A stretch of 12,750 nt of DNA, from the NCBI GenBank assembly GCA_015522765.1, contig WALR01000060.1, positions 1 to 12,750 of the forward strand. The letters run 5' to 3'. This DNA comes from Candidatus Woesearchaeota archaeon. Lineage in GTDB: Archaea; Nanobdellota; Nanobdellia; Woesearchaeales; WALR01. The notes below the pieces were generated by a model, which was given only the letters and a program-made list of their open reading frames with translations, ran no database searches and was not told the DNA's origin. This document shows, piece by piece, positions 1 to 12,359 of this stretch. Within the stretch, counting starts at the first letter, position 1; each line of letters opens with the position of its first letter. The translations under genes were made by a program, and so were the position numbers.

Positions 1-943
1 ACCCCCTTACTTTAAGTGCGAGTACAACACCCTTATTCTTAATTGCAGATTTTAAAACAGAGGACTCTGTTGACACAAAAACACCAGTGACATCCTCTGA
101 GCCGTCAAAAGAACTGATTATTTTAATCCTCTTTGCAGTATCAACTAGGGAAAGCTGCCTCTCAACCTCATACTTTATAATCCTTGGTATTAACCTAAGG
201 TCCTGGGCGCCCTTTATCTCGACGCGGCTCCCCCCCTTCACAGAAACATTAAGGTCCTGCCTTATAGTCCCAAGCCCCCTCTTAACATTCAAAGAACGGA
301 GCAGCGTCCCGAGGTGAAGAGCAACCTCCCCGACCTCGTGTGGATCACCCATAAGGGGGTCAGTGGCAACCTCTATAAGAGGGACCCCAAGCCTTGAAAG
401 CTCGTATTCATCATACGCACTGCCCCTTGCAATTATCTTAGCAGCATCCTCTTCCAGACAGATTGTGGGGATGGTTATGGTCTTGCCCTTCTCTGTCCTG
501 ACAGAACCGTTTAACGCAACCACCATTGTGCGCTGAAATCCTGATGTGTTGCTGCCGTCAATGACAATCTTCCTCATAACCCTTACCTCGTCGACTATTC
601 GCCCCTTTACAAGGGAGGCGAACTGCAGGGCGGTCCTAAGTGCATCAGTGTTTATCCCATGCGGAGGCTCCTCATCGAGCTCAACAAGGCAGGAGCCGGA
701 GGCATAATAAACAAAGCTCTTCGACCTTTCATGTTCAAAAAGAGCCGCTTTGTCAGTCCTTCCTGACTCTCCTGCCGTTACTCTTAGCATTCTCTCTGCC
801 CTGAATCCACGCTTATCAGCCATATCAGACGAGCAGCCGCAGAATAACTTTCCTGTGTTGAGCTGCTGGTGTATCTCTATGCCAACCTTAAGCCCCACCC
901 TCGAGTAATCGGCAATATCCTTGACCCTGTTCTCTCTTCCCAA
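1..943 (-). CDS. gatE: Glu-tRNA(Gln) amidotransferase subunit E, N-terminal part (runs off left edge)
   Basis: GatE pairs with the asparaginase-like GatD to convert Glu-tRNA(Gln) to Gln-tRNA(Gln) in the cytoplasm of archaea. About 314 codons are present, roughly half of the usual length of about 600. Visible: the GatB/GatE opening block VGLKVGIEIHQQLNT (about residues 16-30) followed by KLFCGC; VYYASGSCLVELDEEPPHG; RKIVIDGSNTSGFQR; PLIEVATDP; and QDLNVSVKGGSRVEIKGAQ near residues 230-245. The segment near the left edge (FDGSEDVTGVFVSTES) fits the start of the AspRS-like insertion that distinguishes GatE from bacterial GatB. The start is TTG at 943-941: a stop (TAA) lies immediately upstream in frame, and AGGTGG (rc of 950-955) sits 6 nt before it. 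Family knowledge plus clear motifs make the call firm; only the missing C-terminus is unknown. Confidence 0.93.
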   Translation of the reverse strand, partial: MGRENRVKDIADYSRVGLKVGIEIHQQLNTGKLFCGCSSDMADKRGFRAERMLRVTAGESGRTDKAALFEHERSKSFVYYASGSCLVELDEEPPHGINTDALRTALQFASLVKGRIVDEVRVMRKIVIDGSNTSGFQRTMVVALNGSVRTEKGKTITIPTICLEEDAAKIIARGSAYDEYELSRLGVPLIEVATDPLMGDPHEVGEVALHLGTLLRSLNVKRGLGTIRQDLNVSVKGGSRVEIKGAQDLRLIPRIIKYEVERQLSLVDTAKRIKIISSFDGSEDVTGVFVSTESSVLKSAIKNKGVVLALKVRG

Positions 944-2133: not shown

Positions 2134-2901
2134 ATGGGCGGAAAGAAGAGGGACTCAAAAGAGGGCAGAAAGAGCGGAGATGTGAAGAACCCGGAGATAC
2201 TCTCTGTGAAGCTTCCCGGTGATAAGAACAGCGCAAAGGCAAAGGAAGCCCAGAGGAAAAGCACAATTTATGTCCTCATTATTCTGGCAGCTGTGATACT
2301 CTCAATTGCAGGAGTCGCAGTATTTAACAGGAACTATCACCCCACCCCGAAGACTATTGGCGATTTAATAGGAGAAACTGTTAACAGGGGGCTTAACACA
2401 AGCACGAGGTTTGTTTATAACGGCTTCGGTTTTGTGAGGTCCGACGGCCTGTGGTATACGGAGATAAAGGAAGGAAAAAATGTGTATACAATCCCCCTCC
2501 ACTTCTCGCCCAGGGAGCTAGGCGATGTAAGACTGATAGGGGATGTGCCCATCTGGACAAAATGGGTGTCTCTCGCGACGAACTTCACATATATAACCTT
2601 TGACCCCGGGGGATCACAACTGCAGTATGTTGCTCTTGCAAACTCAGAGCTGGTGAGCAACCTTGTTCAGGCGCTCTCGGTAAAGCCCGTAATTGCCTGC
2701 ACAAACCGTAATGTGGAAGTGTGTAAAACAGTCCCGCAGGTAAACTGCACGAACAGGAGGGGGCCAGTCATTTATCTTAAGATAGACTCTCCAAATAAGA
2801 TATGGCAGGATTCCAACTGCCTCATTATTCAGGGTAACGCTACAGGAATAGTTAAGTCAGTGGAAAGACTTATATATCAATGGTACGGTATAATGCCTTA
2901 G
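2134..2901 (+). CDS. Single-pass membrane-anchored protein, Cys-rich paralogue
   Basis: The family is not recognised. The 255-residue protein has a long charged cytoplasmic tail (about 1-42), a transmembrane helix (about 44-64) and an outside domain resembling the preceding gene product: GFGFVRSDGLWYTEI (97-111), YITFDP (153-158), PVIYLKI (211-217) and DSNCLIIQG (226-234), ending GIVKSVERLIY. It carries four outside cysteines (189, 197, 205, 229) against two in its neighbour; C189 and C229 correspond to that protein's pair. A strong SD, AGGAGGGG (2121-2128), overlaps the upstream stop and sits 5 nt before the ATG, so the two are translationally linked. The arrangement suggests an ancient tandem duplication whose products may act together at the cell surface (inference). 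Confidence 0.87.
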   Translation: MGGKKRDSKEGRKSGDVKNPEILSVKLPGDKNSAKAKEAQRKSTIYVLIILAAVILSIAGVAVFNRNYHPTPKTIGDLIGETVNRGLNTSTRFVYNGFGFVRSDGLWYTEIKEGKNVYTIPLHFSPRELGDVRLIGDVPIWTKWVSLATNFTYITFDPGGSQLQYVALANSELVSNLVQALSVKPVIACTNRNVEVCKTVPQVNCTNRRGPVIYLKIDSPNKIWQDSNCLIIQGNATGIVKSVERLIYQWYGIMP

Positions 2902-2911
2902 GTGGCGTCTT

Positions 2912-3130
2912 ATGGGCTATTCTGTTAAGAGGAGGATATGGTTTTCTCTGATAATGCTGATTCTCTTCCTTAACCTTTTCATTGTCTCATACCTTTATAA
3001 CATTAGGGGAAATCCAATAATAGAAATAGGGATAGGCAGTTTCTGGGTAAACTCCCTGATGATGCTCCTCTCAGTTATTGCCATGTTAAAGAGCTTCTTC
3101 ATAATTCTTCAGTCAGGAACGACGCGTTAG
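2912..3130 (+). CDS. Small two-helix membrane protein
   Basis: No family recognised. The 72-residue protein has a short basic start (MGYSVKRR), a hydrophobic helix (about 9-30), a short linker with IRGNP, and a second helix (about 42-66), ending QSGTTR. The SD GGTGG (2901-2905) overlaps the stop of the upstream gene and sits 6 nt before the ATG, so it is the third cistron of the operon. Its last 32 bp overlap the 3' end of the convergent gene on the minus strand. A role as a membrane partner of the two anchored paralogues is only a contextual guess. Confidence 0.75.
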   Translation: MGYSVKRRIWFSLIMLILFLNLFIVSYLYNIRGNPIIEIGIGSFWVNSLMMLLSVIAMLKSFFIILQSGTTR

Positions 3131-3491
3131 GAGTGACCTCTGTCAATTTCTCATTTGTGCTGTCCCATGATACAAACCTGATTCCGACGCCCGCACCTAT
3201 AAGCGCTGAGATAACTGCCATGTGCTCCTCCCCTGTTCCGCTGCTTATGTTAAGCGCGACCTCTGCGTCGGCTATCCTGTTCTTAAGAGCATCCCTTATC
3301 TCTGCCGAGAGTTCCTTTGGAGGCTTCCTTAGGTCAAAGGACAGCAGCTCTGCAGAGCCCTCATTAAACTTTTCCTTCCCGAAATCATTCGTGATGATAA
3401 CTACCTTCTCCCACTTATAAGCCCTTATTATGCTGTAGACTGTGCGCCATGTTCCCTTTCCTGTTGATAGTAAAGCCACAAGAGTTGTCAT
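3099..3491 (-). CDS. Stand-alone CARF-like / Rossmann-like protein
   Basis: A 130-residue soluble protein. It opens with a hydrophobic strand and Gly/Thr turn, TLVALLSTGKGTW (3-15), a helix, then a second strand KVVIITNDF (29-37). Later comes ALNISSGTGEEHMAV (79-93) followed by GAGVGIRFVSW. The strand-turn-helix at the start and the N-x-S/T-G-T-x-E/K motif before a helix recall CARF domains (Csm6/Csx1/DUF1887-like sensors of cyclic oligoadenylate), where a GTK motif occupies this place. No nuclease or DNA-binding domain is attached and no CRISPR genes are nearby, so a ring-nuclease-like or regulatory role is possible but unproven. Start choice: GTG at 3500 and ATG at 3497 are in frame, but AGGTG (rc of 3498-3502) is spaced 6 nt from the ATG at 3491, which is preferred. 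The gene overlaps the convergent small membrane gene by 32 bp. Confidence 0.7.
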   Translation of the reverse strand: MTTLVALLSTGKGTWRTVYSIIRAYKWEKVVIITNDFGKEKFNEGSAELLSFDLRKPPKELSAEIRDALKNRIADAEVALNISSGTGEEHMAVISALIGAGVGIRFVSWDSTNEKLTEVTPNASFLTEEL

Positions 3492-3519
3492 AACCATCAC
3501 CTGGACATTCCCGTATTGC

Positions 3520-6045: not shown

Positions 6046-6828
6046 TTACTCGACGCTTACCTTGAACTCCTCTCCGCCTGCTTTGATAAGAGAGGCGTCT
6101 CCGGCCAATACGAGCCTGTTCTTCCCGTCTTCATACTCTGACTTGATATTCCCCATAAAATTCTTTATCGTGAAGTCGTCTTCTCTGAGCTTTATTGCTA
6201 GGTTGTCCCCTATGCTTAAATGCCCGCTTGCCTTTCCGCTAAGAGCGCTAAGATAGGCATCGTCAACCTCAACATTGAGGCTCTTCAGCCCTCTCGTGCT
6301 AATCATAACCTCATCAGACCTGTCAAAGGATATGTCTGCGTTTTCAGAGCTGTAATGCCTTGCATGCCCCTCTAGAGAAAGCTTAAGCCCCGTCCATTCA
6401 AGTTTCCCTGAGAATCCGTTAAGCACTATGGAATTCTGGTTGGAGAGGGACACATCCCTTCCCTGCGCCCTTATACTCACATCGCTGCCGCCCAGCTTAA
6501 CAGTAACATCCTCCATGTTAAGGGAGAAGGAGGGCATCACAACATCGACATTGACCTTAAGGCTTCTTCTGCCGCCTACTGATGATGCATCATTGAGCTT
6601 TCTTACTATGCTGGCAGGAGTGCTTGAGGGCTGCCCTATCATCCTGCTGATGTCTTTCACCGCGTCCCCCACAAAATTGTACACCCCTGTTCTTGAGATG
6701 CCCTTCAGGTGTATCTTGGGGTAGAGGGTGAATATGGCAATTACAACTGCCAATAACACTAATCCCTTAATAATGGCTGAGAAAGAGAAAATCTTCCCCC
6801 TCTTTCCTTTCAATAGCTCATTGTCCAT
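6046..6828 (-). CDS. Membrane-anchored, beta-strand-rich protein of unknown function
   Basis: No family recognised with confidence. The 260-residue protein has a short basic cytoplasmic start (MDNELLKGKRGK), a signal-anchor helix (about 14-36), a linker of about 50 residues containing a predicted amphipathic stretch (VGDAVKDISRMIG), and then residues 88-260 of alternating short hydrophobic strands and Gly/Asp/Asn turns (for example VTVKLGGSDVSIRAQG, SIVLNGFSGKLEW and LKLSLEGHARHYSSENADI). Such a pattern resembles stacked-strand jelly-roll domains of the LptA/LptC/AsmA sort, but that is only a fold-level impression. An AGGAGA ribosome site (rc of 6832-6837) sits 3 nt before the ATG. It converges on pyrG with 22 bp between the stops. 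A 9-bp inverted repeat sits between its TATA box and start. Confidence 0.83.
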   Translation of the reverse strand: MDNELLKGKRGKIFSFSAIIKGLVLLAVVIAIFTLYPKIHLKGISRTGVYNFVGDAVKDISRMIGQPSSTPASIVRKLNDASSVGGRRSLKVNVDVVMPSFSLNMEDVTVKLGGSDVSIRAQGRDVSLSNQNSIVLNGFSGKLEWTGLKLSLEGHARHYSSENADISFDRSDEVMISTRGLKSLNVEVDDAYLSALSGKASGHLSIGDNLAIKLREDDFTIKNFMGNIKSEYEDGKNRLVLAGDASLIKAGGEEFKVSVE

Positions 6829-6934: not shown

Positions 6935-8035
6935 CTAAACATAAATCGGCGAGAGGCTGGTTTCTATAATCTGGAATGCCTCTGCAAGGTCCTCCCTGTT
7001 CGTCCTCTTTGAAAGCTTCATCCTTGCAATTGCCTTTGCAAGCCTAATCGCTGAGACAGCAAGCAGGGGAGACACCTCTCTTGTTATTCCCCTCTCCTCA
7101 TCACTGAGCCTCTCAACGAAAGAGGCAACTTCATCCTTGAGGCTGCCTGAGAACTCGGGCTTTATCCTAAGCGCTGAGAGCACATATGCATTGATAAACC
7201 TTGATACATCAATGTCCTCTGCGGACAGCCCCTCAAAGAATGGGCGCCCCCTGGTGCGAACCACAAAGATAAGGTGGAATATGTCTGTCAGCTGCCTCCC
7301 GCAGATAAGCCCTCTCTTTATATCGCTCTCCTCGCATAAAGCAAGAAATGAGAAGCTCGACTCCACGACAAGCTTCCGCCCCTTCTTTTCAAAAATGAAT
7401 TTTTTGCTGTTATTTGCCTTCTTAAGATACACCCATTCATTCCTCTTAATCCTGCAGATGTCATTAATTATCAGCAGGCCGTCATTAGCCCTGCCAAGGA
7501 GACCCTCCTTAACACCCTCCCTGCTAAACGAGGGCAGAAGGGAGCCGCCCTCTGAATATGAAGTGGCAGAGGGAAAGAGGGACTCTGCAGATTTGGAAAG
7601 CTCTGCTCTTATAGCCGCAGGGGCGGCAATAAGAATGTTTAGGTTATCAGAGAATAACTGGGCGAGTAGGGCCTTCCTCACAGGCAGCAGGGCAGAAATA
7701 GACGGCTTAACATACCTTGCTATAAGCCAGGGCTTGTATGACACCTTTGAGAAGAGTCTTCTTCCCATCTCCTCCTCAACCAGGTGGTTGACCCTTTTTA
7801 TGAAATTTGTAATCCTGGGGCGCTCCTTTCCGTTTAGAACCCCTGGGTGAATAATAGGGAGCTCGGACACCATATCAATATCATCTGCCAGCCTAAACCT
7901 TCCGGTAGAGATGAACGCCTTCTTCCTCCTCACAAGAGTCCTCAATAGCTTAAGGTCATCACTGCTGACAACATCCTTAAGCAGGGAGAGCGCGGCGCGC
8001 TCCTCTCCCTTTAACACCCTTAAAGCGCCTAGCAT
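6935..8035 (-). CDS. Degenerate MCM paralogue lacking ATPase motifs
   Basis: A 366-residue protein whose residues 100-366 follow the replicative helicase MCM AAA+ module in order: KPWLIARYVKPSISALLPVRKALLAQLF (MCM: SIAP-S-I-x-G-x-x-x-V-K-K-A), NILIAAP (Walker A region, 133-139), GLLIINDICRI (Walker B region, 186-196), SFSFLALCEES (sensor 1), IFHLIFVVR (arginine-finger strand, 252-260), and a C-terminal lid matching MCM: SAIRLAKAIARMKLSKRTNREDLAEAF (328-354). The key residues are replaced: Walker A glycines and lysine become A-A-P-A-A-I-R-A, Walker B D-E becomes N191-D192, the sensor-1 Asn becomes E235, and the SRF arginine becomes I252. The N-terminal 100 residues are too short for the usual MCM OB/zinc domain. 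It cannot be expected to hydrolyse ATP; a structural or regulatory partner role is inferred. SD AAGGTGG is 5 nt before the ATG. Fold identity rests on reading motifs, not on a search. Confidence 0.72.
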   Translation of the reverse strand: MLGALRVLKGEERAALSLLKDVVSSDDLKLLRTLVRRKKAFISTGRFRLADDIDMVSELPIIHPGVLNGKERPRITNFIKRVNHLVEEEMGRRLFSKVSYKPWLIARYVKPSISALLPVRKALLAQLFSDNLNILIAAPAAIRAELSKSAESLFPSATSYSEGGSLLPSFSREGVKEGLLGRANDGLLIINDICRIKRNEWVYLKKANNSKKFIFEKKGRKLVVESSFSFLALCEESDIKRGLICGRQLTDIFHLIFVVRTRGRPFFEGLSAEDIDVSRFINAYVLSALRIKPEFSGSLKDEVASFVERLSDEERGITREVSPLLAVSAIRLAKAIARMKLSKRTNREDLAEAFQIIETSLSPIYV

Positions 8036-8120: not shown

Positions 8121-11100
8121 TCAGGGGATAAGCGGGGGAGGCAGATTTGCATTCCAGTTACGGCCGTCGCAGGTGTAGCTGCTAATAGAAGTTCCCTTCT
8201 TATCAGAGGTGCACTTCACCCATCTTCCATGTGAACAAACATACTGAAAGTAGGGTCGGAAGCCGTTTCTAATGCACCTTCCTGCAGAGTCAACGCAGTC
8301 GCTGGGGGAGTCACAACATGAAGAAGCGTTGTATATGCTTTTGTCTTCCCTTTGGTAATAGACGCGAAATCTGCCGGCAGGGCAGGGAGCAGTGATGCAT
8401 GGCTTGTTGCAACCCTCATCAGAGGCAAGATTAATGCAGTTGGAAGCAGCAAGCTCCGCCCTTATTGTCTTATTTGGTGCAGAGTAATAAATCCCGCCGT
8501 CGTTCAGGCAGCCGTGGTTGTTCTTAGTTGAGAGTTTTCTATTAATTGAAGCCTCCAAGAGGACAATATCCCCTCTATCTGAGGCGGCGGCATCCTTAGG
8601 GGGAGAACTGATGTTTTCTGATACACGAATAGAATTATTAAATAGATTATTGCCCCTGCCAGCAACAAGGATTCCGAATCCATAAAGAGACCTGTAAACA
8701 CGGTTTAAAGAAATCGTCGAGTGATTGGAATAAAGAGAGATGCCTGATATGCTCTCTCCTGCATAGGGAGAACCAATTGTGTTGTTGGTAACCGTTGCAT
8801 TGGTCGTGTTATAAACAGCGATGCCCAGCGAGAAGTTGGTTATATTGCAGTTCTCTACTTTAACATTGTTCGCAAGGACAGTTATCCCTGTGCTGTTAAC
8901 TCTGTCAAGCCCCCTTAACGCGTGGCCGTTGCAGTTAAACTCCACGTCCTGCTTGGCTATTACAAAGCCCGAGTCGCAGACAATATCGCTGTTAAGAGAT
9001 ACACTTGAATTTATTACGCCGCATCTCGGTCTCTCCCTATTAATTCCTGCAGGGCGGTAAAGCCCTGTATGTCCGGGTCCGCCCTGAAACATTGGCCAAT
9101 CCATTGTTAGCTCATTGTATCTTCTTTTTGTGTCCCACACATAAATCTCTCCGTCTTTCAGCATGAGCACTGGTGTGGATGCAACAACCTCTGTCTTTCC
9201 GTCTCCGTCAATATCACCGAGGGCGACTCCCGAGTTACATACCCCATTAATCAACTTTGGGAAGCCCTTAACTAACCCGCCAGTCCTGTTAAACGCGTAA
9301 ACATACCCATCCAATGTTGTTGTCAGGACATCAGGGTAGGCGTCCCCATCAACATCACCTATTGTCGGCTGGACGAGGCTGACCCCAATCATGGGCCTGG
9401 ACCAGATTAACCCGCCGCTGCTATTAAGAAGGGTAAGGTAGCTAATTCGCTTGGGCCAGTCTATTAGGCTGGACGCTATCTCGGGCTTCCCGTCATTGTC
9501 AATATCCCCTACAGCTATCCCGTTTATAAACGAGCTTTTCTCTGAATAAAAATTCCACATCGTTGTTCCATTATAATAAACGAAACGAACAATGCTGGCC
9601 CCTACGCTGTTTGCGAACCCTATCTCAAGTGTTCCATCCCCATTGAGGTCTGCCAACACAGGAGAAGAAATGGGGAAGTAGGCATAACTAAGGTCGTAAT
9701 TAGCAGGAATAATCAACTTTTTTTCTTCGACGGTTCCGTTCATGCTCAAAATGTAAAGGTAGGTGGATGTGAAGGCCCTATGCTTCTTATCTTCCTTAAA
9801 CTGCGTAACCAGTGCAACAATGTCCTTGTTTCCGTCATTGTCCACATCGCCAACCACGGGGGAGCCGCTAAGATAAGCATGGCCCCCTACTGAAACATTA
9901 TACTCGTACTTTCTACTCCCTCTAATTATAACTATCCTAGGGGGCATCGGGACATTTGAATGCATATTCGTCCTCCAGGGATTAACATTAAAGATTGCAT
10001 CTGATTTATTATCATGATCGATGCTTTCAAGCACAGCATATGATCGTGCGGCATCCATGTGAAGAGAGAGGTTATTATCACCGTTTATGGGCCATCCTTT
10101 AACCCTGCTGGAGTTGTAATACCAGGCATTAAAACAAGAGAGGTTAACGCTCTGATTCCGTTCAAAATCAAATCCGGAAACCACTGCCTCACTTGTTTTA
10201 TCCCCATATATGTCCCCTGCTGAAACCCCTGGCTCAGGAATGTTCCCGTAATAAGCCCCGACTACCTCTGGGGGCCATCCCTTCCGCAATGTCCCGTTCT
10301 CATCATAAACATAAGCCCCGCTGGCTGTTACTATGACCTCTTCCCTGCCGTCGCCATCAAGGTCCGCGATTGTAGGGGTGATAGGAAATCCTAATCCCTG
10401 ATACTGTACCAGGTCTGAATGAAGCTTGACAGGCCAGCCCTTGTGATAATTCCTTTTATCCTGGAACAACAACCTCTTCATATCATGTGCTTCTTTATCA
10501 TTCTGTGTATATTCAACTAACTTCAAGGTGTAAACCCCATCTCCAAGTCCGCTGGTATTCCAGTAGGCGAGCTCTCCTTTCACGCTTTTATTCCCGGATG
10601 CAATCTTTATCCATCGCGAGGGGTAGGAGCCGTACCCATAATATATGCTGTAACTTCCATGAGTAGCGCCTTCTATAACAACATCTCTGTTAATCCTGGC
10701 GCCCTGCGCAGGAGAGGTTATCAGGGGGCCTTCAAGACTGGACTTCGAGAGGTGGAGACTCTTGTTAACATCCACCCTGCCGGTGCCAATGTACCTGAGT
10801 GTGTTTAGGGGAGTGCTCCCCTTCTGGATTATTTTCTTAACATCTGAAGGAGACAGCGAAGGGTCCTTTGAGAGTATTAGGGCCGCGAGCCCTGCAACAT
10901 AAGGAGTTGCCATTGATGTTCCCTGAAGGTACATATATCCCGATGGGTCGCTTAATATGCCCTTCCTAGGAACAGTGCTCAGTATCGTTGCATCATCTGT
11001 TATGCTGTCCCCTCCCGGGGCTGCGACATCCACCCATAAACCGTAATTTGAATAAAATGACCTTTCATCCTCTTTATTCGTTGAGGCGACTGAGATTACA

Positions 11101-12359
11101 TATGGAAGAGCGGCAGGATAGGACCATTCTGTATCCTTGCTTATGGAGTTTCCTGCGGCAGCTACAAGAACGACATTTCTGCTGCGGGCGTACTCTAAGG
11201 CTTCTTCTATCAGCTTCGAATCCCTGCCTCCAAAGCTCATACTGATTACTTTTGCCCCCTTATCAGCGGCGTAATGAATTGCCCTGCTTACATCATCGTT
11301 CTCGAGGGTGCCATAGAAATAATCGCCGTACTTTATCCCGAATCCTGCTCTAACAGGCATAATCCTGCAGCCGGGGCAGACACCTATAACTCCGAGATGG
11401 TTGTTTCCTGTGGCAGCGGCTATCCCAGCGCAGTGAGTGCCGTGCCCAACATAGTCCTCAGGCTTATTATCAGGGGTGGTGTAGTCTTCATCGCTGAGGA
11501 ACTTCATCTCCTTTGGATAATCATCCTTGTTGACATCGACGAAGTCATACCCTGTGCCTTCAGGGCATCCGTCTGAGCACTTGCCCATCATGTTATTGGA
11601 AAGGTCCTCATGGGTGTAGTCCACCCCTGTATCGACTATGGCAATTATTGTATTCTTATCTCCGTAAGCGATATCCCAGCCTGCCTCTGCATGTGTAACC
11701 TTATGCGGCCATTGATGGCCGTAAAGGGCATCATTTGGCTTAAAGGATGTCCTGTAGAGGTAATTCGGCTCGGCATAAATAACGCTTCTCTCTGATGAGA
11801 GATCCTTTACTATGTCATTTACCTCTCCTTTCCTGAAGCTCAGGAGGAGGGTTCCTGAGAGTCTCTTCTTGTTTGCACCGCCCCTCCTGTTCACGCTTGT
11901 TGCTGGCTGCTTGAATATTCTTTGCGCCTTCTTAACATCATACTTCTTCAGTATCGATGTGAGGGAGGGGTCCTCTGAATAAAGCGAAGGTGTGCTCATA
12001 ACTAATGCCTTTAATCCCCTTGCAATGGTGCTTCTTTCTTTTATCTCTGCGCCCGGCTTAAGCTTTACAACGACCTCGTGCGGGACAAATTCAGGGAGAT
12101 GCCCTGTATTCATTGGCCGGGCCTGCTTAACAGGTATGCTGCGCCTCGTAATTACAGGCTGGCTCTTTGGCTGCAAGCCCTTAAGAAGGTTCAATCCCTG
12201 CGCAGGGAGGTTGTAGTGGGCTGACGGCTGCACGGCCGCCTTACCTGTAAGGGGCTTCTCGCTACACCCTGATAGGATAAGCAATGCCAGAAGGAGCGCT
12301 ATAACTGAGAAGTAGCCCATGTAAAAACTCTTCTTTCCTTTAATTTCGTCTGATTGCAC
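8121..12359 (-). CDS. Giant surface subtilisin-like protease with beta-propeller and beta-helix domains
   Basis: 1412 residues. Order: K-rich n-region and hydrophobic helix (about 14-31) ending in lipobox-like L-S-G-C32; linker; I9/fervidolysin-like prodomain (about 92-205, from PHEVVVKLKPG to VIYAEPNYLY); S8 catalytic domain (about 215-535) with D243 (AIVDTGVDYTHED), H308 (GHGTHCAG), oxyanion N404 (AAAGNS) and nucleophile S482 (GTSMATPYVAG); an Ig-like strand domain (547-618); eight FG-GAP/calcium-type D-x-D-G-D-G-like loops near 667, 717, 780, 838, 904, 952, 1002 and 1049, interleaved with KGWP motifs, so a seven- or eight-bladed propeller; DWPMFQGGPGHTG (1087-1099); a NosD-like right-handed beta-helix (about 1112-1245, NCNGHALRG); and a tail with twelve cysteines (1284-1397). 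Many N-x-S/T sites. GTG at 12359 is 27 bp from a TATA box (leaderless); ATG at 12320 is an alternative but would drop the basic n-region. The catalytic residues are intact. Confidence 0.94.
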   Translation of the reverse strand: MQSDEIKGKKSFYMGYFSVIALLLALLILSGCSEKPLTGKAAVQPSAHYNLPAQGLNLLKGLQPKSQPVITRRSIPVKQARPMNTGHLPEFVPHEVVVKLKPGAEIKERSTIARGLKALVMSTPSLYSEDPSLTSILKKYDVKKAQRIFKQPATSVNRRGGANKKRLSGTLLLSFRKGEVNDIVKDLSSERSVIYAEPNYLYRTSFKPNDALYGHQWPHKVTHAEAGWDIAYGDKNTIIAIVDTGVDYTHEDLSNNMMGKCSDGCPEGTGYDFVDVNKDDYPKEMKFLSDEDYTTPDNKPEDYVGHGTHCAGIAAATGNNHLGVIGVCPGCRIMPVRAGFGIKYGDYFYGTLENDDVSRAIHYAADKGAKVISMSFGGRDSKLIEEALEYARSRNVVLVAAAGNSISKDTEWSYPAALPYVISVASTNKEDERSFYSNYGLWVDVAAPGGDSITDDATILSTVPRKGILSDPSGYMYLQGTSMATPYVAGLAALILSKDPSLSPSDVKKIIQKGSTPLNTLRYIGTGRVDVNKSLHLSKSSLEGPLITSPAQGARINRDVVIEGATHGSYSIYYGYGSYPSRWIKIASGNKSVKGELAYWNTSGLGDGVYTLKLVEYTQNDKEAHDMKRLLFQDKRNYHKGWPVKLHSDLVQYQGLGFPITPTIADLDGDGREEVIVTASGAYVYDENGTLRKGWPPEVVGAYYGNIPEPGVSAGDIYGDKTSEAVVSGFDFERNQSVNLSCFNAWYYNSSRVKGWPINGDNNLSLHMDAARSYAVLESIDHDNKSDAIFNVNPWRTNMHSNVPMPPRIVIIRGSRKYEYNVSVGGHAYLSGSPVVGDVDNDGNKDIVALVTQFKEDKKHRAFTSTYLYILSMNGTVEEKKLIIPANYDLSYAYFPISSPVLADLNGDGTLEIGFANSVGASIVRFVYYNGTTMWNFYSEKSSFINGIAVGDIDNDGKPEIASSLIDWPKRISYLTLLNSSGGLIWSRPMIGVSLVQPTIGDVDGDAYPDVLTTTLDGYVYAFNRTGGLVKGFPKLINGVCNSGVALGDIDGDGKTEVVASTPVLMLKDGEIYVWDTKRRYNELTMDWPMFQGGPGHTGLYRPAGINRERPRCGVINSSVSLNSDIVCDSGFVIAKQDVEFNCNGHALRGLDRVNSTGITVLANNVKVENCNITNFSLGIAVYNTTNATVTNNTIGSPYAGESISGISLYSNHSTISLNRVYRSLYGFGILVAGRGNNLFNNSIRVSENISSPPKDAAASDRGDIVLLEASINRKLSTKNNHGCLNDGGIYYSAPNKTIRAELAASNCINLASDEGCNKPCITAPCPAGRFRVYYQREDKSIYNASSCCDSPSDCVDSAGRCIRNGFRPYFQYVCSHGRWVKCTSDKKGTSISSYTCDGRNWNANLPPPLIP

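Follow-up and report, generated by a model that had tools for sequence, protein, structure and literature searches.

Copies of a short MCM-type AAA+ family of archaea appear to have lost their motor repeatedly, and the dead copies have probably been kept as maintained pseudoenzymes; one of them, the protein studied here, would act as a nucleotide-independent scaffold. It is encoded in the window, i.e., the whole stretch of 12,750 nucleotides of a Candidatus Woesearchaeota contig that was analyzed.

Descent of the window protein from a short MCM-type family

In an order-wide search of 287 genomes, the homologues of the window protein were full-length and mostly about 390 to 430 aa in size. The best of them, in genome G011, aligned with residues 7 to 361 of the window protein at 29% identity (E value, 2.5e-32), and canonical MCMs (670 to 700 aa) aligned at the lid only. 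According to the same search, the short gene is present in 83 of the 286 other genomes of the order. Pfam MCM and MCM_lid were matched in all 24 short-family members scanned. A scan of GTDB species genomes for the family retained 79 loci (L033 to L111), nearly all of which carry the names Woesearchaeota or Nanoarchaeota, the rest being a few Nanohalarchaeota, one Aenigmatarchaeota, and some archaea under other names. The members are annotated at the source as ATP-binding protein, AAA family ATPase, hypothetical protein, or DNA replicative helicase MCM subunit.

A profile built from 24 relatives matched the window gene in its own genome with 133 bits over profile positions 11 to 391; the next match was a MoxR-type gene on contig C138 (E value, 1.5e-7), and a second copy of the short family was not found in this genome by the profile search. 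The median identity of the window protein to its relatives is 24%, compared with 46% among the relatives themselves. Homology over the full length including the N-terminal domain, an MCM-type AAA+ core, a pre-sensor-1 hairpin, and an MCM lid show the window protein to be a descendant of a short (about 390 aa), OB-less MCM-type AAA+ family that occurs mainly in Woesearchaeota. The residues that characterize the active ATPases of this family, specifically all four motifs and the sensor-2 Arg, are gone, and on its sequence we file the protein as a dead descendant of the family and not as an ATPase. The initial annotation had proposed that the usual N-terminal OB/zinc half was swapped out in this protein; instead, the protein descends from a separate OB-less family of about 390 aa. 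Its identification as a replicative MCM was rejected, there being no MCM_OB (PF17207) among the matches listed for the protein and no ATPase motifs left. No description of the short OB-less family was found in the open-access papers searched.

Retention of the fold and loss of the ATPase residues

The features of the window gene are listed in Table 1. The protein was predicted with confidence to fold into an MCM AAA+ module plus lid, in accordance with what the initial annotation had read from the C-terminal part. The extension of the homology into the N-terminal domain is supported by the best homologue matches, most of those listed beginning at residues 2 to 13. In the predicted model of a relative, this domain displays the order H-H-H-E-E-long H (pLDDT, 85), a predicted fold that is winged-helix-like at best, and no confident structural match to this model was obtained. 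The identity of the window protein drops most in the catalytic core (25% to the family versus 65% among the relatives themselves) and less in the lid (29% versus 44%) and the N-terminal domain (20% versus 31%).

Table 1. Features of the window gene and its product
Feature	Position in window	Strand	Basis
MCM-fold protein with lost ATPase motifs, 366 aa	6935..8035	-	ORF; PF17855 match; family profile, 133 bits; predicted fold
N-terminal domain, about residues 1-100, common to the ~390-aa family	7736..8035	-	Alignment with family
Walker A position: A-PAAIRA (residues 138-144) for GDPGTGKT	7604..7624	-	Family alignment
Walker B position: IINDIC (residues 189-194) for CIDELN	7454..7471	-	Family alignment
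Pre-sensor-1 beta-hairpin, residues 207-227	7355..7417	-	Alignment; predicted strands E212-217, E220-225
Sensor-1 position: ALCEE (residues 232-236), Asn gone	7328..7342	-	Family alignment
Arginine-finger position: LTDIFHL (residues 249-255), Ile252 for Arg	7271..7291	-	Family alignment
Sensor-2 position: Leu324 for Arg	7064..7066	-	Arg in 203/203 family rows
MCM AAA-lid, residues 280-361, best conserved part	6953..7198	-	Pfam match; identity by region

The family alignment confirmed that Walker A, Walker B, the sensor-1 Asn, and the arginine finger are all replaced, as had been claimed from the letters of this stretch, and the loss of the sensor-2 Arg goes beyond these four motifs. About 10 family residues are absent just past the sensor-1 position. 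In 221 family rows, 88 columns are conserved at a level of 90% or more; the window protein keeps 34 of these and loses 54. Note that this set of rows is biased toward intact copies. The rows, all of at least 370 aa, came from the top 120 of 726 proteins, the top 80 of 81 genome stretches, and the top 29 order relatives; all four motifs are present in 221 of 221 rows, and the genome stretches were found via patterns, one of them Walker B.

The pre-sensor-1 hairpin of the window protein keeps Lys217, a lysine that all 203 rows have in common, and carries a net charge of +4 (mean of active relatives, 1.18; standard deviation, 1.03). By our reading of the alignment, Lys217 corresponds to the lysine of the SsoMCM pre-sensor-1 hairpin, a motif whose most likely purpose, according to a review, is DNA binding (PMC4619765). 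In six other dead copies, described below, the hairpins are likewise net basic (+1 to +4; active mean in that comparison, 1.09), and net basic hairpins are weak evidence for nucleic-acid binding. Because the Lys column of these six copies holds no Lys (Arg in two), binding of nucleic acid by the hairpin is a guess.

Recurrence of motif-dead copies

The short genes of all 83 other genomes were fetched, and their motifs were checked one by one. In 74 genomes, the gene is unbroken and has all four motifs. Three genes are broken, with motifs visible in the pieces (G103, one TAG; G178, a frameshift; G098, split), the gene in G217 runs off a contig end, and that in G121 is a short fragment. The remaining four are open frames without a P-loop, i.e., G048 (402 aa), G017 (367 aa), G116 (283 aa), and G147 (322 aa), the last two being cut by contig starts. 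A dead-copy profile run against 336 genomes of the order added at least two further dead copies, G095 (372 aa) and G123 (390 aa). The six motif-dead open ORFs found besides that of the window are filed as loci L174, L176, L180, L181, L187, and L188. In loci L144, L165, L179, and L110, the family gene is disrupted (stop, frameshift, or split), reflecting either decay or assembly error. One further candidate (G172:C3, locus L189, 586 aa) was rejected since its MCM motifs are intact; it has zinc-ribbon-like cysteines, its genome contains two MCM_OB matches, and it is possibly a second MCM.

None of the seven dead copies, including that of the window, has a recognizable P-loop or Walker B Asp-Glu pair. 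The remaining motifs vary among them: L176 retains the finger Arg and the Walker B Glu, and L180 retains the sensor-1 Asn, with a Lys at the P-loop Lys column. The core identity of the other dead copies to active ones is 24 to 35%. A search for orthologues with the same substitutions had been suggested as a check; it was borne out in part, as motif-dead open ORFs exist in six other genomes, but the substitutions differ.

The seven copies are distributed over five GTDB families, namely, f1 (window), f60 (G116 and G147), f49, f18 (G017 and G095), and f75. Because intact copies (G059 and G074) occur in f60 and f75 as well, at least three independent losses of the motor are required, a minimum that traces f1, f49, and f18 back to a single loss, as is possible in principle. 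With the G116-G147 pair set aside, the dead copies have a mean identity of 22 to 31% to active copies and of 18 to 24% to other dead ones; since they are closer to active copies, five losses are likelier than three, an argument that is weak on such long branches. As judged from these sequences, the motor was lost in at least three lineages and probably in five.

Coding constraint in the window gene and in other dead copies

The initial annotation had taken the intact ORF as a sign of selection rather than decay, a view strengthened by the coding constraint seen in the ORF, in codon usage, and in a decay simulation. The window gene has no stop in 366 codons, and its GC3 of 0.572 lies within the range of its neighbors (0.51 to 0.62; intergenic GC, 0.32). 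Measured against a base-matched null, its codon usage scores a z value of 10.1, compared with 11.4 for the adjacent pyrG (CTP synthase) and 4.2 to 14.6 over nine genes. When neutral decay by point mutation was simulated to comparable divergence for the genes of six relatives, stops appeared in 180 of 180 runs (mean, 14.1; minimum, 6), the first at a median of 97% identity, and GC3 sank to 0.36. The seven dead copies show no stop or frameshift in their readable stretch, which is shortened by contig starts in two of them. G116 and G147 belong to the same genus and are both dead and both open at a mutual identity of 37%, and this pair comes closest to testing for selection once the motor was lost.

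Retention in the window protein favors hydrophobic positions, of which it keeps 22 of 39 conserved ones compared with 12 of 49 others (Fisher P = 0.004; with a second alignment, P = 0.017). The eight most divergent intact rows do not show this bias; among four other dead copies, three show the same direction without significance and one the reverse.

The faster divergence of the window protein is largely gene specific: the ArvA, OapB, and OapC proteins of the same genome have median identities of 69, 57, and 60% to their relatives (72, 68, and 62% among the relatives). Note that the 57% of OapB falls below the relatives' 5th percentile of 60%, so the other genes of this genome are not all quite normal. 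Searches of 352 order genomes and of 378 genomes sampled from the class yielded no relative of the window gene above 29% identity, and the branch of this gene in the tree, with 7.1 changes per site, has no reliable placement. The broken copies in G103, G178, and G098 and the fragment in G121 indicate that the gene can decay in the order, unless they are assembly errors.

Gene neighborhood and the ArvA-OapB-OapC system

The window gene is located between the gene of an S8 subtilase (8121 to 12359) and that of a 260-aa protein (6046 to 6828), all on the minus strand. The commonest neighbors of its relatives are an ArvA-type GTPase, OapB (PF09846), and OapC (PF09845). Some or all of these are found downstream on the same strand within the next five genes in 21 of 76 loci, corresponding to 8 of 34 clusters at 60% identity; 51 of the 76 usable loci have none of them downstream, and 4 have no downstream gene at all, with 3 of the 79 loci (L082, L095, and L101) having been dropped from the neighbor clustering. 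The family gene lies upstream of ArvA-OapB-OapC in, for example, L046, L053, and L110. The arrangement is also seen in L046 and L049, which match G092 and G011, the latter being the genome with the best match to the window protein. In the window's own genome, ArvA, OapB, and OapC are on a contig other than that of the window gene, and the flanks examined for four of the dead copies showed none of the three.

ArvA, ArvB (DUF2073), and ArvC (DUF2072) are reported as a Haloferax volcanii operon for the formation of extracellular vesicles, with ArvA homologues occurring in DPANN (PMC10927574). The Pfam names of OapB and OapC refer to "origin-associated" proteins. Taken from the active relatives, the neighborhood suggests the hypothesis that the family works around the ArvA-OapB-OapC GTPase system.

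Other genes recur near the family gene. Clusters c4 (about 190 aa) and c7 (about 235 aa, PIN-like by reading) are found at 13 and 11 loci, respectively, mostly divergent and upstream of it (L038, L041, L068, L184, and others), with no Pfam family above the cutoff for either. The dead gene of G017 retains a divergent c4 neighbor (50% identity), and c4 adjoins active copies elsewhere. A 766-aa gene that resembles B-family DNA polymerases, a label given from reading the sequence and not from a search, lies 5' of the family gene on the same strand in L040, L042, L043, L045, L051, L054, and L098. The subtilase next to the window gene (1,412 aa) has FG-GAP repeats and a NosD-like part, and members of its cluster (c10) accompany the family gene at 7 other loci; no family is known for the 260-aa neighbor.

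Elsewhere in the window, a stand-alone 133-aa protein (3099 to 3500, minus strand) gave a weak CARF-domain match (PADLOC PDLC01794; E value, 7.8e-5) and no credible match in Pfam or NCBIfam. Two adjacent, co-oriented paralogues of unknown family (1502 to 2122 and 2134 to 2901, plus strand; 26% identity; E value, 1e-13) both have an N-terminal hydrophobic stretch. A GatE-like gene, so labeled by reading (2 to 943, minus strand), is cut by the window edge, and a tRNA-Val(cac) is located at 1318 to 1391 on the minus strand.

Canonical MCM in the host genomes

Of 274 order genomes, 253 have an MCM_OB match. A second, intact mcm gene had been looked to as a check on the window protein; the 85%-complete assembly contains no MCM_OB match at an E value of 10. 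Overall, MCM_OB is absent from 3 of the 7 dead-copy genomes (the window's own, G000, as well as G116 and G147) versus 18 of 267 others, a contrast with a Fisher P value of 0.011, or 0.064 when the two genomes of the same genus are counted once. Since these three assemblies are 71 to 85% complete, the missing MCM_OB is a lead only. Four of the six other dead-copy genomes have MCM_OB (G017, G048, G095, and G123). The genomes without it number 21, of which 20 are listed; these 20 include 6 of the 83 other genomes with the short gene.

Relation to known MCM proteins

The initial annotation knew of no described archaeal counterpart, but the literature on Methanopyrus kandleri describes an inactive MCM homologue that carries natural internal deletions and whose Walker A is not conserved (PMC3972481, PMC2933578). 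As described there, this protein, mkaMCM2 (PDB 3f8t), shares with the window protein the MCM fold and the loss of Walker A. It has the A, B, and C subdomains of replicative MCMs, whereas the window protein has no MCM_OB match and another N-terminal domain of about 100 aa, called different in kind via the model of a relative's domain. In animals, MEI-218/MCMDC2 proteins are reported to have MCM-related AAA+ domains with Walker A and B lost, the AAA+ domain of MEI-218 being separate from the MCM N-terminal half (PMC5070785, PMC6553819). These proteins, which we liken to the window protein by description, differ from it in being meiotic recombination factors that work with MCM8/REC.

Replicative archaeal MCMs resemble the window protein in the fold of the AAA+ core and lid but are 670 to 716 aa long, and Walker A is present in all 10 canonical genes fetched (once as GDPGAAK; a scripted Walker B pattern matched 7 of the 10). 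The short family is like the window copy in N-terminal domain, size, fold, and lid, but most of its members have intact motifs (74 of 83 genomes), whereas the window copy and six others do not. The novelty thus is the recurrent loss of the motor in another, short MCM-type family, dead MCMs themselves being already known.

Discussion

We consider it probable that short-family copies have repeatedly become motor-dead and been kept as maintained pseudoenzymes. At least three lineages, and probably five, have lost the P-loop and the Asp-Glu pair of Walker B, with a gene that is still open over all of its readable length. The window copy has none of the residues that bind, hydrolyze, or sense ATP but keeps the fold, lid, and N-terminal domain. 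It would be a basic scaffold that works without nucleotide and carries the structural half of the family's job. Partners would be contacted via the N-terminal domain and the lid, and nucleic acid possibly via the pre-sensor-1 hairpin. The motor step would be either dispensable in the hosts of dead copies or provided by another protein.

The dead copies might instead be genes on their way out, i.e., young pseudogenes that have yet to meet a stop. We regard this as unlikely, although the window copy is extremely divergent, has lost 54 of 88 conserved positions, and has outright broken counterparts in 3 of the 83 other genomes as well as one fragment. In simulation, the first stop came as early as a median of 97% identity, and yet all seven dead copies lack a stop or frameshift in the readable stretch, with the congeneric pair G116 and G147 both open at 37% identity; the window gene matches its neighbors in codon usage and GC3, and its protein has a confidently predicted fold.

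A role at the replicative MCM ring of its own cell, as raised in the initial annotation, is about equally improbable; the window protein would serve there as a non-catalytic subunit, a loader, or an inhibitor. Its MCM fold fits such a role, as do the precedent of MEI-218/MCMDC2, which according to the published accounts have lost the Walker motifs and are thought to modulate an active MCM8 (PMC5070785, PMC6553819), and the small share, 6 of 83, of the other genomes with the short gene that appear among the 20 listed without MCM_OB. However, the protein is without the OB/zinc tier for joining an MCM ring, and, with assemblies 71 to 85% complete, MCM_OB is absent from 3 of 7 dead-copy genomes versus 18 of 267 others. 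It is very improbable that the window copy is an active, if atypical, NTPase whose site has been rebuilt: Asp192 lies one position off the Walker B Asp column, but the P-loop Lys/Thr, the sensor-1 Asn, the Arg finger, and the sensor-2 Arg are all missing from it.

Within the preferred reading of maintained, motor-dead copies, a tentative and rather doubtful extension would make the family a second, OB-less MCM machine of Woesearchaeota that serves the ArvA-OapB-OapC (vesicle-forming or origin-associated) GTPase system and not fork unwinding, with an essential role that is structural, so that the ATP motor was repeatedly shed and the scaffold kept. A comparison of active and dead copies would show which parts are indispensable to the family's job, and the linkage to ArvA-OapB-OapC may provide the first testable hint of the function of the family.
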